A DNA stretch of 64,000 nucleotides from Streptomyces uncialis (GTDB lineage Bacteria > Actinomycetota > Actinomycetes > Streptomycetales > Streptomycetaceae). This document shows positions 30,020-36,882 of this stretch, in pieces; position 1 is the stretch's first letter; each line of letters starts with the position of its first letter. The stretch covers positions 310,001 through 374,000 of the forward strand of contig NZ_LFBV01000002.1 of assembly GCF_001905345.1 (NCBI RefSeq), written 5' to 3'. The position numbers were made by a program, and so were the translations under genes. Under the pieces are notes generated by a model. It saw nothing but the letters and a program-made list of their open reading frames with translations. It did not search any database and was not told where the DNA came from.

Positions 30020-33000
30020 TCATCGGCCGTCCCGGGTTGCCCGCGGCCGGTCGCCGTGGTCCGGGGTCCCGGGGGCGGTGCCGTCCGCGCGGATCGTCGT
30101 TCCGAGCGCCCGGCCCGCGTGGGTCTCGGTGTCGAACCGGTCGCCGTCGAGCGCGGCGCGCACGGCCCGGGTGATCCGGTCCACGTCGCCGCGTTCGGCG
30201 GGCGGCAGCGGCGCGTCGACCTCCTCGCGGGCGGCGGCGGCAGCGCCGAGGAGCCGGGCGGCGGCGCGGGGGCGGCCGTCGAGGGCGGCCGTTCCGGCGA
30301 GTCCTTCCAGCGCGAGGGCGACGGCCCGGGGGTCGGCCACGACCCGGGCGACCGCGAGTCCTTCCTCGTGCAGGGCGCGCGCGGTACGGGCTTCGCCGCG
30401 CAGTTCCGCGACGAAGCCGAGTTCCGCGAGGAGCAGGGCGACGGCGACGTCCACGCCCCGGGCCCGGTTCCAGACCAGACAGCGGCGCAGCAGGTCCTCG
30501 GCGGTGGCGAGGTCGCCGCGCCGCCGGGCGCCGAGTCCCAGTCCCAGTTCGGCGAGCTGGCGGCCGAACTGGTCGCCGTGCCGGACGGCGAGCCTTCGGG
30601 CGCGTTCGTGCAGGGCGTCCGCCTCGGCCGGGTCCCCGGCGAGGAGGGTGACCCGGCCGAGTCCGGAGAGCAGGTAGCAGAGCTCGGGCCACAGCCGCAG
30701 TTCCTCCGCGACGCGCAGGCATCGGCGGTGCAGCCGTGCGGAGGTCCCGTAGTCGCCGGCGATCTCGGCGAGGGAACCGAGGGTGGGGACGACCTGGAGG
30801 CGTCCCCAGTCGTCCCCGAGCGCGTCGAAAAGGGCAAGGGAGCGTTCTCCGTCGGCGCGTGCCCCGGTGAGGTCGCCGCGTGCCATCCGCTGCCAGGAGC
30901 GGACGCTGAGGACCGCCGCGGTGCCCCACGGGTCGTCGAGGGCGGCGACGGCGTCGGCGGCGCCGATGGCGAGGCGTTCACTGCCCGCGAGGTTGTCCCA
31001 GCCGAGGAGGGAGGCGAGGTACCAGCGGGCGCGGGCCCGGCGGACCGGGTCGGTGGTGACGCGGGCGTGGGCCGCGAGCGCGGGCGGGTCGGCGGCGGGG
31101 TCGTGCGGGGAGGCGTCCGCCGGGGGCACGGGGCCGGCCGGGCCGGGTGTCTCCCCGAGGACGAGTCCGGCGCCGAGCCGCCAGACCCCTGCCTCGGCGG
31201 CGAGGGCCGCGTCCCCGGGTGCGGCGGGCAGCGCGAGGACCGCGTCCAGCCAGTGGCGGGCCTCGGTGAGACGGCCCCGCAGATGCCAGTACCAGGCGAG
31301 GGCCCCGACCAGGCGCAGCGCGGAGGTGGTGTCGCCGTCCTGGACGGCGCCGCCGAGCGCGGTGCGCAGTCCGGGGGACTCCTCGTCGAGGCGGTCGAGC
31401 CACCGGCGTTGCCCGGGGCCGCGCAGCTCGGACGCGGCGCGTTCGGCGAAGGCGACCAGATGGGCGCGGTGGGCGCGCCGGACGTCCGCCGTCTCGCCCG
31501 CCGCGTCGAGCTGTTCGCGGCCGTACACGGCGACGGACTCCAGCAGCCGGTACCGCAGCCCGTGGTGTCCCGGGGCGGCGACGACCAGGGAGCGTTCGAC
31601 CAGGCGGGCGAGGAGGTCCGCGATCCGGTCCCGGGGCACGGGCGGGCCCGCGCACACCGCTTCGGCGCCTTCCAGGGCGCAGCCGTCGCGGTGGAACGCG
31701 AGACGGCGCAGCAGGGCGCGTTCCTCGTGGTCCAGGAGGTCCCAGCTCCAGTCGATCATGGCGCGCAGGGTGCGGTGCCGGGCGGGGACTCCCCGGTTCG
31801 CGGTCGCCAGCAGCCGGAACCGGTCGTCGAGCCGCCCGGCGAGGCCGTCGAGACCGAGGGAGCCGACGCGGGTGGCGGCGAGTTCGAGGGCGAGGGGGAT
31901 GCCGTCGAGACGGCGGCAGATCGCGGTGACGGTGGCGGTGGCCGGGCCGTCGGTGCGCACGGCCGGCGCGGTGCGGGCGGCGTGGGCCCGGAAGAGGGCG
32001 ACGGCCTGCGGCTCGGCCAGCGGTGCGACGGCGAGCACCGACTCGCCGGGGACGCGCAGGGGTTCCTGGCTGGTGGCGAGCACCCGCAGCATGGGCGCGG
32101 ACCGCAGCAGACGGGACGTCAGTTCCGCCACAGGGTCGGCGAGGTGTTCGCAGTTGTCCAGGACGAGGAGGAGGGGCCGGTCCGCGACGGCGGCGGCGAG
32201 CCGGTCGACGCGGTCGGGGGCGCGGCCCGGAGCTCCGGCGGCCGGGGCGCCGGGGGCTGGCGGGCCGGGCCGGGGTGGGCGGCGCGGCGCCGGTGGCTCG
32301 TCGCGGACCCCGAGCTCCGTCGCGACGGCTTCGACGACGGACGAGGCGGGCGCGTCACGGGCGACGGCGGCCAGTTCGACCAGTGCCACCTGCTCGCCGG
32401 TCGCCGCGATCCGGTGGGCGGCCTCCAGCGCGAGCCGGGTCTTGCCGACACCACCGGGGCCCGTGAGGGTGAGCAGTCGGCCGGTCCGCAGCCGGGTGAC
32501 GGTGTCCTCGACGGCGTCCTCCCGTCCGACGAGCGCGGTCAGCGGTACCGGCAGCCGGGAGCCGCCCGGGGTCAGAGCCGGGTCCTGGCGCAGGATCGAC
32601 CGGTGGAGGGACGCGAGGCCGGGGCCGGGGTCGACGCCGAGTTCACCGGCGAGGCGCGCGCGCAGCTCGTGGTAGGCGGCGAGGGCCTCGCCCTGGCGTC
32701 CGGCGCGGTACAGCGCGCGCATCTGCGCCGCGCGGAAGCGCTCCCGCAGAGGGTGGCGCTCCACCAGTTCGGCCAGCTCACCGAGGAGTTCGGGGAATCC
32801 GCCGAGCTGGAGCCGGGCCTCGGCGTGGTCCTCGGTCGCGACCAGGCGTTCCTCCTCCAGCCGTTCGACCACCGCCCGGGTGAGGAACGTGTCACGGAAG
32901 TCGGCGTAGGCGGGCCCCCGCCACAGCGCGAGCGCCTCGGTCAGCAGCCCGGCGCGCCGTCGCGGGTCGTGGCTCGCGCGGGCCTCGGCGGTGAGCCGCG

Positions 33001-33319
33001 CGAAGCGTTCCGCGTCGACCGTGCCGGGGCCGGTGACGAGCCGATGGCCCGCGGGGGTCGCCGCGATCAGTTCCCGTCCGCCCGGTTCGGCGTCCTCGAG
33101 GGCACGGCGCAGCTGGGACACCTTGGTACGCAGTACCCGGGCGGGTTCGGCGGGCGGATCGCCTTCCCACAGGCCGTCGATCAACTGTCCGGGCGGGACG
33201 GGACGGCCGGCGTGGGCGAGCAGCGCGGCGAGCAGCGCGCGGACCTTGCGTTCGGGTACGCGTACCGGCGTCCCGCTGTTGGTCCACACCTGAAGGGGAC
33301 CGAGCACCCCGAATCGCAT
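30020..33319 (-). CDS. SARP-type transcriptional regulator with NB-ARC and TPR domains, 1099 aa
   Basis: Begins [19 protein letters not shown], the opening of AfsR/SARP regulators. Residues about 10-90 form an OmpR-like winged helix ([20 protein letters not shown]), and 95-245 a BTAD helical domain. The NB-ARC ATPase starts near 265, with Walker [17 protein letters not shown], Walker [15 protein letters not shown] and [15 protein letters not shown]. The last 450 residues are TPR-like helical repeats. Such proteins activate secondary-metabolite or export genes. It is divergent from the 14-TM exporter at 33515 across a 195-nt gap and is a plausible regulator of it. Confidence 0.9.
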
Positions 33320-33514: not shown

Positions 33515-35113
33515 ATGCCGTCGTACGCACCACCCCGTCCCACGCATCGGGCGGGCCCGAGGCAATGGGCCGGGCTCGCCGTGCTCTCGCTCCCGCTGCT
33601 GGTGCTCGCGCTGGACGTCAGCGTGCTGTTCCTGGCGGCGCCGCAACTGGTCGCGGATCTGCGGCCGAGCGGCGCCCAGACCCTGTGGATCATGGACATC
33701 TACGGCTTCGTGATCGCGGGGTTCCTGGTCACCATGGGCACGCTCGGTGACCGGCTGGGGCGACGGCGGCTGCTGCTGACCGGCGGGGCGGTGTTCGCCG
33801 TGGCGTCGGTCCTCACCGCGTACGCGACCAGCGCGGAGATGCTGATCGCGGCCCGCGCGCTGCTCGGGGTGGCGGGGGCCACGCTGATGCCGTCGACGCT
33901 GTCGCTGATCAGCACCATGTTCCTGGACGCGCGGCAGCGCGCGCAGGCCATCGCGATCTGGATGACGACGATGACGGTGGGGGTCGCGATCGGGCCGCTC
34001 GTCGGCGGTGCGATGCTGGAGCACTTCTGGTGGGGCTCGGTGTTCCTGCTCGCCGTCCCGGTGATGGCCGTGCTGCTGGCCCTGGGGCCGGTGCTGCTGC
34101 CCGAGTACCGCGATCCGCGGCCGGGCCCGCTGGACATGCCGAGCATCGCGCTGTCCCTCGCGACACTGCTTCCGGTGATCCATGGGCTGAAGCACCTGGC
34201 CTCCGAGGGGCCCGGCCCGGTGACGGCGGTGGCCGTGGCGGCCGGGGTGCTGTGCGGGGCGCTGTTCGTACGACGGCAGCGGCGGCTCGCTCATCCGCTG
34301 CTGGACCTGTCGCTGTTCTCGAACCGTACGTTCTCGGTCGCCCTCGGCCTGCTGCTGTTCGGGCTGGTCGCGATCAACGGCGTGCAGTATCTCGCACCGC
34401 AGTACTTCCAGTTGGTCGCGGGCATGTCCCCGCTGCGGGCGGGCCTGTGGATGCTGCCGGTGGTCCTGGCGGCGACGGCGGGCATGATGCTCGCGCCCCC
34501 GCTGGCGCGGCGGTTCGGCCCGGCGCGGGTGATGGCGGGCGGCGCGCTGCTGTCGGTGGCGGGCTTCGCGCTGGTCAGCCAGGTGGACACGGCCGGCGGG
34601 CTGTCCACCCTGGTGACCGGGTCGGCCATCGCCATCGCCGGGATCAGCCCGCTACCGGTCCTGACGACCGAACTGGTGGTGGCCGCCGCCCCGCTGGAGA
34701 AGACGGGCTCGGCGGCGGCGATGTCCGAGACCAGCGGGGAGCTGGGTGTCGGTCTGGGGGTGGCGCTGAACGGGAGCCTCGTCGCCGCGGTGTTCGCCGC
34801 CCGGACGGCTTCCGAGCCTGCGGCGGGCGACGATCTGGCGAGCACTCTGACGGTCGCCGGGACGCTGCCCTCCCCCGCCGGTGACGAACTGACGGCCACC
34901 GCCCGGGACGCGTTCACGGCGGGCCTCAACATGGTCGGGGTCGCCGGGGGCGCGCTGATGCTGCTGCTCGCGGTCGGCGCCGGATGGGCGCTGCGCGGGA
35001 CGCGGAGCGCGACGGACGACGCGACGAACAGGGCGGCGGACGAAGCCGGGGACGACGCGGCGGGCGACGACGCGAGCCACCGTGCGGCGGCCAGGGTCGA
35101 CAAGGCCGGGTGA
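33515..35113 (+). CDS. MFS drug exporter, QacA/EmrB-like, 14 transmembrane segments
   Basis: 532 aa, ATG at 33515 with GAGGAGG at 33503. TM1 carries the membrane aspartate LALDVSVLFLAAPQLVADLR. Motif A is GTLGDRLGRRRLLLTGG, and motif C-like glycines lie in ARALLGVAGATLMPSTLSLI. Fourteen hydrophobic segments are present, then a charged tail of about 45 Asp/Ala residues. Likely a proton-coupled drug or metabolite exporter. Divergent from the SARP regulator. The in-frame stretch upstream to 30056 is an antisense shadow of that gene. Confidence 0.9.
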   Translation: MPSYAPPRPTHRAGPRQWAGLAVLSLPLLVLALDVSVLFLAAPQLVADLRPSGAQTLWIMDIYGFVIAGFLVTMGTLGDRLGRRRLLLTGGAVFAVASVLTAYATSAEMLIAARALLGVAGATLMPSTLSLISTMFLDARQRAQAIAIWMTTMTVGVAIGPLVGGAMLEHFWWGSVFLLAVPVMAVLLALGPVLLPEYRDPRPGPLDMPSIALSLATLLPVIHGLKHLASEGPGPVTAVAVAAGVLCGALFVRRQRRLAHPLLDLSLFSNRTFSVALGLLLFGLVAINGVQYLAPQYFQLVAGMSPLRAGLWMLPVVLAATAGMMLAPPLARRFGPARVMAGGALLSVAGFALVSQVDTAGGLSTLVTGSAIAIAGISPLPVLTTELVVAAAPLEKTGSAAAMSETSGELGVGLGVALNGSLVAAVFAARTASEPAAGDDLASTLTVAGTLPSPAGDELTATARDAFTAGLNMVGVAGGALMLLLAVGAGWALRGTRSATDDATNRAADEAGDDAAGDDASHRAAARVDKAG

Positions 35114-35316
35114 CGCGGGGGGCGTGTCCGCGGTGACGACACCTGTCACGGCCGCCGCCGCCCGCACCCCCAGCGGTGACCAACGCGGGTGTTCGGGAGC
35201 CGGGTTGGAGCCTGGGGCGCGGCGTCCCAGACGGGTGACGGTGACCCGGCCGAACGGTTCCGGTGCGGGCCAGGGCGGGAACGGGACGGCCGTCGGGCGG
35301 ATGGTACGGTCGCGGG

Positions 35317-35331
35317 ATGAGCGGTACCTAG
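35317..35331 (+). CDS. Candidate leader peptide MSGT in the exporter 5' leader
   Basis: ATG AGC GGT ACC TAG. A TANNNT-type -10 hexamer (TACGGT, 35304-35309) lies 7 nt upstream, so transcription could begin at or next to this ATG and the ORF could be leaderless. Codons 2 to 4 make up the outer 5' arm of the inverted repeat that masks the exporter's ribosome site. Translation is inferred, not shown. Confidence 0.35.
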   Translation: MSGT

Positions 35332-35471
35332 AGGTTCTCAGGGTCGACCGGGCGTCCGGCCGCCGTCACGGCGGATACGGGGACGAACCCGGCGGCGACG
35401 TCTGTCCGTGTGCCGTTTCCGCACGGAGCCCCCGTGCGGCGCGCGTCTTCCTGAGAATCCGGAGTACCGCT
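35320..35471 (+). promoter_or_regulatory. Structured 5' leader sequestering the exporter ribosome binding site
   Basis: AGCGGTAC (35320-35327) pairs with GTACCGCT (35464-35471), and TTCTCAGG (35335-35342) with CCTGAGAA (35450-35457). The result is two perfect 8-bp helices separated by an internal loop. The enclosed 107 nt contain local hairpins CCGCCG-TCA-CGGCGG (about 35359-35373) and CGCACGG-AGCCC-CCGTGCG (about 35420-35438). The GGAG ribosome site (35461-35464) of the exporter lies in the closing stem. This is the architecture of a translational attenuator or riboswitch. I do not match it to a known Rfam class. Confidence 0.55.
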
Positions 35472-35475
35472 TCCC

Positions 35476-36882
35476 ATGTCCTTCCTTGCCCGTGACGGGC
35501 GGCCGAGCGCTGCCGTCGGCCGTCCCCGGTCCCGTCGGCTGACCCTGCTGGTCCTCGCCCTGTTGCAGTTCCTCATCGCCGTCGACGTCACCGTCGTGAA
35601 CATCGCGTTGCCCTCGATCGGCACCGACTTCGGTGCGGACGCCCGTCAGCTCACCTGGGTCGTGACGGGATACACCGTCGTCGGCGGCGGGCTGCTGATG
35701 GTCGGCGGCCGGATCGCCGACCTCCACGGCCGCCGCCGCACCCTGTTGGTGGGCGCGGCGGTGTTCGGTCTGGCGTCGCTGGCCGCCGGACTCGCGACCT
35801 CGCTGGAGATGCTGGTGCTGGCCCGCTTCGCCCAGGGTGCCGGTGAGGCGCTCGCCGCTCCGGCGGCGATGTCGACGCTGGCACTGCTCTACCCGGACCC
35901 GGCGGCCCGCTCCAGGGCGCTCGGGGTCTGGGCCGCGGTCGCGAGCAGCGGTCTGGTGCTGGGCTTCCTGCTGTCGGGTCTGATCACCCAACTCCTCCAC
36001 TGGCGCTGGATCTTCCTGGTCAATCTGCCGCTGATCGCCGTGGTGCTGGTGGGCGTACGGGTGCTGGTGGTGCCCGACGGGCGGCGGGCCGCGCGGCAGC
36101 CGCTCGACCTTCCCGGGGCGCTGCTGCTGACGGCCGCGCCGCTGCTGCTGATCCACGGTGTCATCGAGTGGGGCGAGCAGCGTCCCGATGTCCTGTCGGC
36201 CGCCGGGACCACGCTGGCCGGTGTGCTGTGCGCCCTGGCGTTCCCGGTGGTGGAGCGGCGCTCACCGCATCCGCTGGTTCCGCTGTCGTTCTTCCGCGAC
36301 CGGGTACGGGTCGTCGCCAACCTGGCGACGGCGCTGCTCAGTGCGGCGCTGTCGACGTCGTTCTTCCTGCTGACGCTGTTCGTGCAGCGGGATCTCGGGC
36401 TCTCGCCGATCGCCGCGGGGCTGTGGTTCCTGCCGCTGGCGGTGACCCTGATCCTTGCGACCGTCGTCGTGCCCGGTGTCCTGCGGCGGGTGGGCGACGC
36501 GCGGGGCGCGGTGCTCGGGATCGTGGCCACCGGTCTCGGCTGCGGCTGGCTCGCCGTGTCCCCGTCGGATTCGGCCGCCGTCGCGGTGCTGCCCGGGATG
36601 GTGTGCGTCGCGTCCGGTATGGGGGTCGCCCTGGTGGCGTTGCAGAACGCGGCCCTGCACTCGGTCACCGAGGACGACGCGGGTATCGCGTCCGGGGTGC
36701 AGCGGTGCGCCGATCAGCTGGGCGGGGCGGGCGGTGTGGCGCTGTACGTGGGGATCGGGTTCTCGTCGCTGCCCGGCGGTGACACCGATCCGTATGCCGT
36801 CGCGTACGGGATGGCGATCGTCGGGCTGACCGTCGCGGCGATCGGTGTGCCGCTGCTGAGCCGGGGCGGGCGCACGGCGTAG
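35476..36882 (+). CDS. MFS multidrug exporter, EmrB/QacA-like
   Basis: 468 aa, ATG at 35476. TM1 contains LALLQFLIAVDVTVVNIALP (motif D1, with the Asp). Motif A is GGRIADLHGRRRTLLVGA, motif C QGAGEALAAPAAMSTLALLY, with a WRWIFLVNLP motif in the first half. About 14 membrane segments. Likely effluxes antibiotics or toxic compounds. Its ribosome site is buried in a long leader helix, implying translational control. It ends at a tandem hairpin terminator shared with the convergent lipoprotein gene. Confidence 0.9.
   Translation: MSFLARDGRPSAAVGRPRSRRLTLLVLALLQFLIAVDVTVVNIALPSIGTDFGADARQLTWVVTGYTVVGGGLLMVGGRIADLHGRRRTLLVGAAVFGLASLAAGLATSLEMLVLARFAQGAGEALAAPAAMSTLALLYPDPAARSRALGVWAAVASSGLVLGFLLSGLITQLLHWRWIFLVNLPLIAVVLVGVRVLVVPDGRRAARQPLDLPGALLLTAAPLLLIHGVIEWGEQRPDVLSAAGTTLAGVLCALAFPVVERRSPHPLVPLSFFRDRVRVVANLATALLSAALSTSFFLLTLFVQRDLGLSPIAAGLWFLPLAVTLILATVVVPGVLRRVGDARGAVLGIVATGLGCGWLAVSPSDSAAVAVLPGMVCVASGMGVALVALQNAALHSVTEDDAGIASGVQRCADQLGGAGGVALYVGIGFSSLPGGDTDPYAVAYGMAIVGLTVAAIGVPLLSRGGRTA

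Follow-up and report, generated by a model that had tools for sequence, protein, structure and literature searches.

How is an exporter gene whose ribosome-binding site is bracketed by RNA helices brought to expression, and what part might a four-codon reading frame at the 5′ end of its leader play? The question is raised by a leader in the 64,000-nt stretch of Streptomyces uncialis DNA analysed here (the window). We read it as a ribosome-mediated translational attenuator built on a putatively leaderless upstream open reading frame (uORF), and give this reading a probability of roughly 80%.

Two helices bracket the ribosome-binding site of the exporter

The original prediction, made from the sequence alone, had described two perfect 8-bp helices, about 107 enclosed nucleotides with two hairpins, a complete MSGT reading frame on the 5′ arm and a −10-like hexamer whose spacing would start transcription at this frame. 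All of these features were located in the sequence, and the predicted fold reproduced the helices and the two main hairpins together with an additional 3-bp hairpin (Table 1), in an interior that is not conserved in relatives. The minimum-energy fold lengthens the inner helix, with one G-U pair. No sigma-70 −35/−10 pair or −35 consensus was found upstream of the window uORF. The exporter Shine-Dalgarno (SD) sequence had been placed inside the closing helix, which held in part: GGAG does lie between the helices, but it is only partly paired, with unpaired probabilities of 0.40 for G35461, 0.28 for G35462, 0.97 for A35463 and 0.003 for G35464, the base that belongs to the outer helix. These per-base values thus describe an SD sandwiched by two helices and not fully paired.

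Table 1. Coordinates of the leader and the exporter in the window.
Feature	Position	Strand	Remarks
−10-like hexamer TACGGT	35305-35310	+	6 nt 5′ of the uORF ATG; predicted +1 is the uORF ATG
Leaderless (predicted) micro-uORF, MSGT*	35317-35331	+	ATG AGC GGT ACC TAG; counterparts in lmrA and Sinosporangium
Outer helix, 5′ arm, AGCGGTAC	35320-35327	+	inside the uORF; perfect 8 bp with 35464-35471
Inner helix, 5′ arm, TTCTCAGG	35335-35342	+	perfect 8 bp with 35450-35457
Inner helix, extended 5′ arm	35333-35342	+	directly 3′ of the uORF stop; pairs with 35450-35459
Enclosed 107 nt	35343-35449	+	main hairpins 35343-35396 and 35407-35445, plus one 3-bp hairpin (fold)
Inner helix, 3′ arm	35450-35459	+	fold
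Exporter Shine-Dalgarno GGAG	35461-35464	+	11 nt 5′ of the exporter ATG
Outer helix, 3′ arm	35464-35471	+	forms the spacer from SD to ATG (fold)
LmrA-clade MFS (DHA2) exporter, 468 aa	35476-36882	+	NF000031 profile match, tree

A related possibility is that stalling on the uORF switches an intrinsic or Rho-dependent terminator 5′ of the exporter, as for lmrC. Such a mechanism is indeed used by lmrC, and are5sc is induced in transcriptional reporters, according to the available text of two reports (PMC8546547, PMC12421871); moreover, blocked translation could bring about further loss through Rho. We nevertheless regard transcription attenuation as unlikely at this locus, given that no intrinsic terminator (hairpin followed by a T run) was detected in 35114-35520 and that the pairing adjoins the SD, an arrangement suited to translational control.

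The layout is improbable by chance

The leader and its exporter lie in a GC-rich context (0.70-0.78 GC in 2-kb steps along the window), and shuffled leaders average −81.6 kcal/mol. The native leader had a fold z-score of −3.46, none of 200 shuffles being as stable. Two collinear helices of at least 8 bp joining the first 30 nt to the last 30 nt arose in 0 of 2000 dinucleotide shuffles, and a single helix of this length in 41 of 2000. We also scanned for the whole layout, defined as a GGAG-start pair with an upstream −10-spaced uORF of 3-8 codons and a helix of at least 8 bp. Across both strands of the window, 204 GGAG-start pairs yielded one match, the leader itself. The same scan of other loci (846,108 bases over both strands) gave 1214 pairs, 22 uORF candidates and 10 matches, all preceding LmrA-clade exporters; since some loci overlap or duplicate one another, the 10 matches amount to 7 distinct leaders. 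When the leader was masked, a −10-spaced uORF preceded 0 of 202 GGAG-start pairs in the window, and with the leaders of 56 loci masked, 1 of 611.

The exporter is a relative of LmrA

Among 57 families, the LmrA profile NF000031 matched the window exporter best, at 609.9 bits, below the 850-bit cut-off. The protein is 65% identical to LmrA and 70% identical to an exporter of Sinosporangium siamense (L009). In the exporter tree, which carried a warning of meeting long branches and in which L024 was entered with 46% of columns, the window exporter grouped with L009 (100/95), and this pair joined LmrA weakly (85/38). The three formed one group (100/100) with a clade of 40 rows that holds L053 and the 39 exporters with a type I leader, and the type II exporters fell outside; the leader types are described below. 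From the sub-cut-off score and the tree grouping, we take the window exporter to be a relative of LmrA and not LmrA itself.

The lmrA locus was recovered as L028/L029, scoring 1077 bits, the sole match above the LmrA cut-off in a search of 392 genomes in which the best few candidates per genome were scored. A gamma-glutamyltransferase gene follows the exporter in L028/L029; lmbA, the neighbour of lmrA, encodes an enzyme of this kind. In the lmrA leader, TAAGGT precedes a uORF that begins with GTG and reads SGI*, and a 12-bp helix is present; judged by these sequence features, lmrA carries the same kind of leader as the window exporter. In the portions of the literature available to us, LmrA is a proven lincomycin exporter, which confers lincomycin resistance and is required for self-protection (PMC8546547), and its gene flanks the lincomycin cluster (PMC12945683) and is also activated by GlnR (PMC10704036). 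Among the matches listed from open-access papers, none mentioned attenuation by a uORF at lmrA or at related exporter genes.

A predicted leaderless uORF recurs before the homologues

Homologues were drawn from a contig scan (18 loci) and from exporter searches of 392, 392, 394, 250, 150, 60 and 150 genomes, which with repeats amount to 1,788 genome-searches, the best few candidates per genome being scored. After removal of duplicates (L027, L029, L030, L049, L050, L063 and L065) and distant loci (L025 and L026, with 30-31% identity and from other phyla), 64 non-redundant exporters were kept; L082-L088 re-found genomes already in the set and were not added. A leader with a putatively leaderless uORF precedes 58 of these 64, 57 found by script and one, L075, by eye (uORF MGVFTK*, −10 spaced 10 nt). 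The other six comprise two partial matches, which start only at residue 109 (L019) and residue 67 (L053), and four distant relatives with 42-43% identity (L020-L023). The peptide filter of the script was written after the peptides had been seen; the unfiltered list gives the same uORFs save those of L009 and L063, which it missed on account of their spacing.

The 57 scripted leaders start their uORF with ATG (49) or GTG (8). The motif TAnnnT, the −10 consensus of Streptomyces according to the accessible text of PMC8079986, stands 7 nt from the uORF start in 49 of them, 6 nt in 5, 8 nt in 2 and 9 nt in 1, so that 54 of 57 have it at 6-7 nt within a detection window of 5-9 nt. The uORF start codon is accordingly predicted to be the transcription start. 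Plasmid-borne relatives were not found at E 1e-60.

The leaders are of four types

Type III, with the peptide pattern M[SC]G[TI], comprises the window (MSGT), S. siamense (L009/L063; MCGI*) and lmrA. These are its only three members in the exporter searches, in which the best few candidates per genome were scored, and in one contig scan, so coding constraint in this type is read from M[SC]G[TI]* as such; nothing new was added by 150 relatives of genome G000, 60 of G813 and 150 of G314. The GGAG keeps its position and the inner helix is retained in all three leaders. When the inner helix was aligned by reading the predicted pairs by eye, its 10 columns comprised 4 compensatory changes (one bulged in L009), 1 one-sided change, from G-U to A-U, and 5 invariant pairs. 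Of the three leaders, only that of the window forms a perfect outer helix; L009 has a weak one and the lmrA fold has none. With the start codon counted, the leaders measure 162, 123 and 275 nt, and their enclosed parts differ in sequence and length. Covariation, which had been proposed as a check on the structure, is thus present in the inner helix across three leaders, but neither the outer helix nor the hairpins of the interior show conservation.

Type II comprises short leaders with uORFs that end in VTK*, VTE*, FTK*, FSK* or FIK* (...[VF][TSI][KE]*), 13 found by script together with L075. In all 13 scripted leaders, the uORF is followed by [CT]TCC[AG]GG, which pairs with the exporter GGAG segment; that segment reads CC[TC]GGAG in most leaders, TTGGAG in L014 and L018 and TCTGGAG in L017. 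The fourteenth leader, L075, sets CTCCAGC against TCTGGAG. Over the 14 sequences, 3 of the 9 pairs of this anti-SD helix show both-sided changes in some sequence. In the enclosed region of the short type II leaders, mean column identity is 43%. A search of genus genomes with the type II motif, limited to its VTK/VTE form, returned 9 matches in 7 of 199 genomes, and a reversed-pattern control returned 2. Two of the nine (L089 and L095) have the uORF layout, both before LmrA-clade exporters; the other 7 were judged from their surroundings to be chance matches.

These comparisons bear on whether a riboswitch operates here, in which binding of a small ligand (conceivably the drug) to the enclosed hairpins would open the helix, the uORF being incidental. 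The layout is compatible with this and the enclosed part is highly structured, but that part varies in sequence and length within type III and in the short type II leaders, while the position of the uORF, its −10 spacing and the arm after its stop codon are retained. Furthermore, no Rfam family reached its gathering score in the window, the only sub-threshold match at E up to 5 scoring 14.8 bits against 40, and no Rfam match fell on the leader in 20 loci, where the sole match was a tRNA in L055. A riboswitch is therefore very improbable, and a conserved aptamer in the leader is disfavoured by the unconserved interior and the lack of an Rfam family. The original prediction had the helix opened by translation, a ligand or a drug; the recurrent uORF, the covarying inner helix and the lmrA leader largely support the layout and the uORF that it described, nothing speaks for a ligand aptamer, and a drug-stalled ribosome would be what opens the helix.

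Type IV, with the uORF MMAVAVTE*, has two leaders (L061:1285-1452 and L062:1316-1491), and in neither did the script detect an exporter SD. The first 8 nt of the uORF in L061 are complementary to the exporter start region, as are 6 nt in L062.

Type I consists of 39 long leaders with a uORF of 17 or 18 codons, MS.AS.AA.AAVTRT.R*. Over its last 11 sense codons, diversity at codon positions 1, 2 and 3 is 0.112, 0.109 and 0.260, and this third-position bias points to coding constraint, as expected of a translated peptide. An RNAalifold consensus of 38 of the 39 leaders (L031 was left out for its length) contained 40 pairs, 5 of them with both-sided changes; its covariation term was just −1.34. 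The V-T pair of the peptide is invariant and a CGCTAGCGGCGG hairpin is conserved in these leaders (L035, L040, L042, L047, L052 and 34 further loci). The type I leader looks like a separate multi-hairpin attenuator, and no description of it was present among the matches listed from open-access papers. The remaining alternative, constitutive damping, in which the helix just holds exporter translation low and senses nothing, can appeal to the strong folding of GC-rich leaders even when shuffled, but we give it little credence because it leaves unexplained both a uORF at near-fixed distance from its promoter in 58 of 64 homologues and the coding constraint of the sister type I.

Covering the uORF lowers the predicted cost of opening the ribosome site in types II and III

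We then computed the cost of opening the exporter ribosome site, once for the free leader and once with its uORF blocked, using same-size blocks placed elsewhere as controls. Covering the uORF cut the opening cost in 13 of 13 type II leaders, by a mean of 7.0 kcal/mol, and in 12 of the 13 the uORF block surpassed every control block. The cost also dropped in all three type III leaders. For the window it fell from 13.7 to 8.0 kcal/mol with a block reaching +17, corresponding to a ribosome on the AUG, and to 10.4 kcal/mol with a ribosome on the last codon. Control blocks equalled the last-codon block in 6 of 23 cases for the window, 2 of 14 for L009 and 0 of 51 for lmrA. In the model, covering the 5′ arm of the window leader lets the SD re-pair with other sequence, and it does not become single-stranded. 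The start-codon block did better than the last-codon block in 3 of 3 type III leaders, and worse in 13 of 13 of type II; as in type III this block lies within the last-codon block and yet scores better, the measure depends on alternative pairings. The contrast suggests that type III may be tuned to stalling at the start codon, and that in type II the relevant stall may lie close to the uORF end. Blocking had no effect in type I (mean 0.85 kcal/mol, compared with 1.10 kcal/mol for control blocks) and was mixed in type IV, where control blocks did as well in 0 of 19 and 9 of 21 cases.

A drug-stalled ribosome may expose the exporter SD

For the window leader, read as a translational attenuator, we infer the following course from start site and uORF translation to drug-dependent stalling and induction. 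Transcription would start on the ATG of the four-codon uORF. Without drug, ribosomes loading on the 5′-terminal start codon would finish the uORF rapidly, and the arm 3′ of its stop codon would pair beside the GGAG and close the exporter ribosome site. An antibiotic bound at the peptidyl transferase centre would hold the ribosome on the uORF; a lincosamide is the likeliest candidate, or else another agent that causes stalling on the start codon or immediately after it. The footprint of this ribosome, from 35317 to about 35333-35342, would remove the 5′ arm and expose the GGAG, and the exporter would be made only when needed.

More tentatively, and at less than even odds, the whole exporter clade may use leaderless uORFs as drug sensors, with initiation on a 5′-terminal start codon throughout and the stall position encoding drug specificity. 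The window and lmrA would then represent stalling at the start codon (lincosamide-like), and [VF]T[KRE] an internal or final Thr motif responding to another drug class.

In translational attenuators of the ermC/cat type, a drug-stalled ribosome on a short uORF opens the structure that hides the SD. The principle is ordinary; what looks new, judged by the matches listed from open-access papers, is the (predicted) leaderless form of the micro-uORF, which recurs with diverged sequences across an exporter clade. We compared the window leader with known systems as far as the accessible portions of the cited papers describe them. cplR of Clostridioides difficile, which combines translational with transcriptional attenuation (PMC10201436), likewise has a short uORF, an SD-hiding structure and opening by a drug-stalled ribosome, the last being what we would expect of the window leader; in contrast, a search for an intrinsic terminator in the window leader found none, its uORF lacks an SD and is predicted to be leaderless, and the target is an LmrA-clade MFS exporter. 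The leaders of the Streptomyces ARE5 ABCF genes lmrC, are5sc and tiaA are also actinobacterial with short uORFs such as MLV, and toeprinting showed that lincosamides, pleuromutilins and streptogramin A stall ribosomes on the start codons of the are5sc and tiaA uORFs (PMC8546547, PMC12421871). These two uORFs, however, have ribosome binding sites, lmrC acts via a premature terminator, and the targets are ABCF genes.

Leaderless uORFs before regulated genes have been described for the leader peptides leuL, trpL and ilvL in S. lividans (PMC8079986) and for candidate Cys-rich uORFs in mycobacteria, where initiation occurs on ATG or GTG at +1 (PMC4633059). These are read as amino-acid sensors by their codon content, whereas MSGT has no codon run and stands before a drug exporter. 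The trpL leader of S. meliloti also begins with its ATG at the RNA 5′ end and is linked to multidrug resistance, but there the peptide, peTrpL, acts in trans on smeABR (PMC7298713).

If the proposed mechanism is true, the lincomycin pump and its relatives would be drug-inducible at the level of translation through a sensor of great simplicity, a four-codon ORF that has no leader of its own, and leaderless attenuation would reach beyond amino-acid genes into antibiotic resistance. The uORF peptides of the four types would then form a ready-made panel for matching short sequences to the drugs that stall ribosomes on them, and for studying how peptidyl-transferase inhibitors affect leaderless initiation.

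Two neighbouring genes complete the locus. A second MFS exporter gene lies directly upstream of the leader (33629-35110), its best NCBIfam models being QepA and LfrA, both below their cut-offs, and a large SARP/AfsR-like regulator is encoded beside the two exporters on the minus strand (30020-33319).
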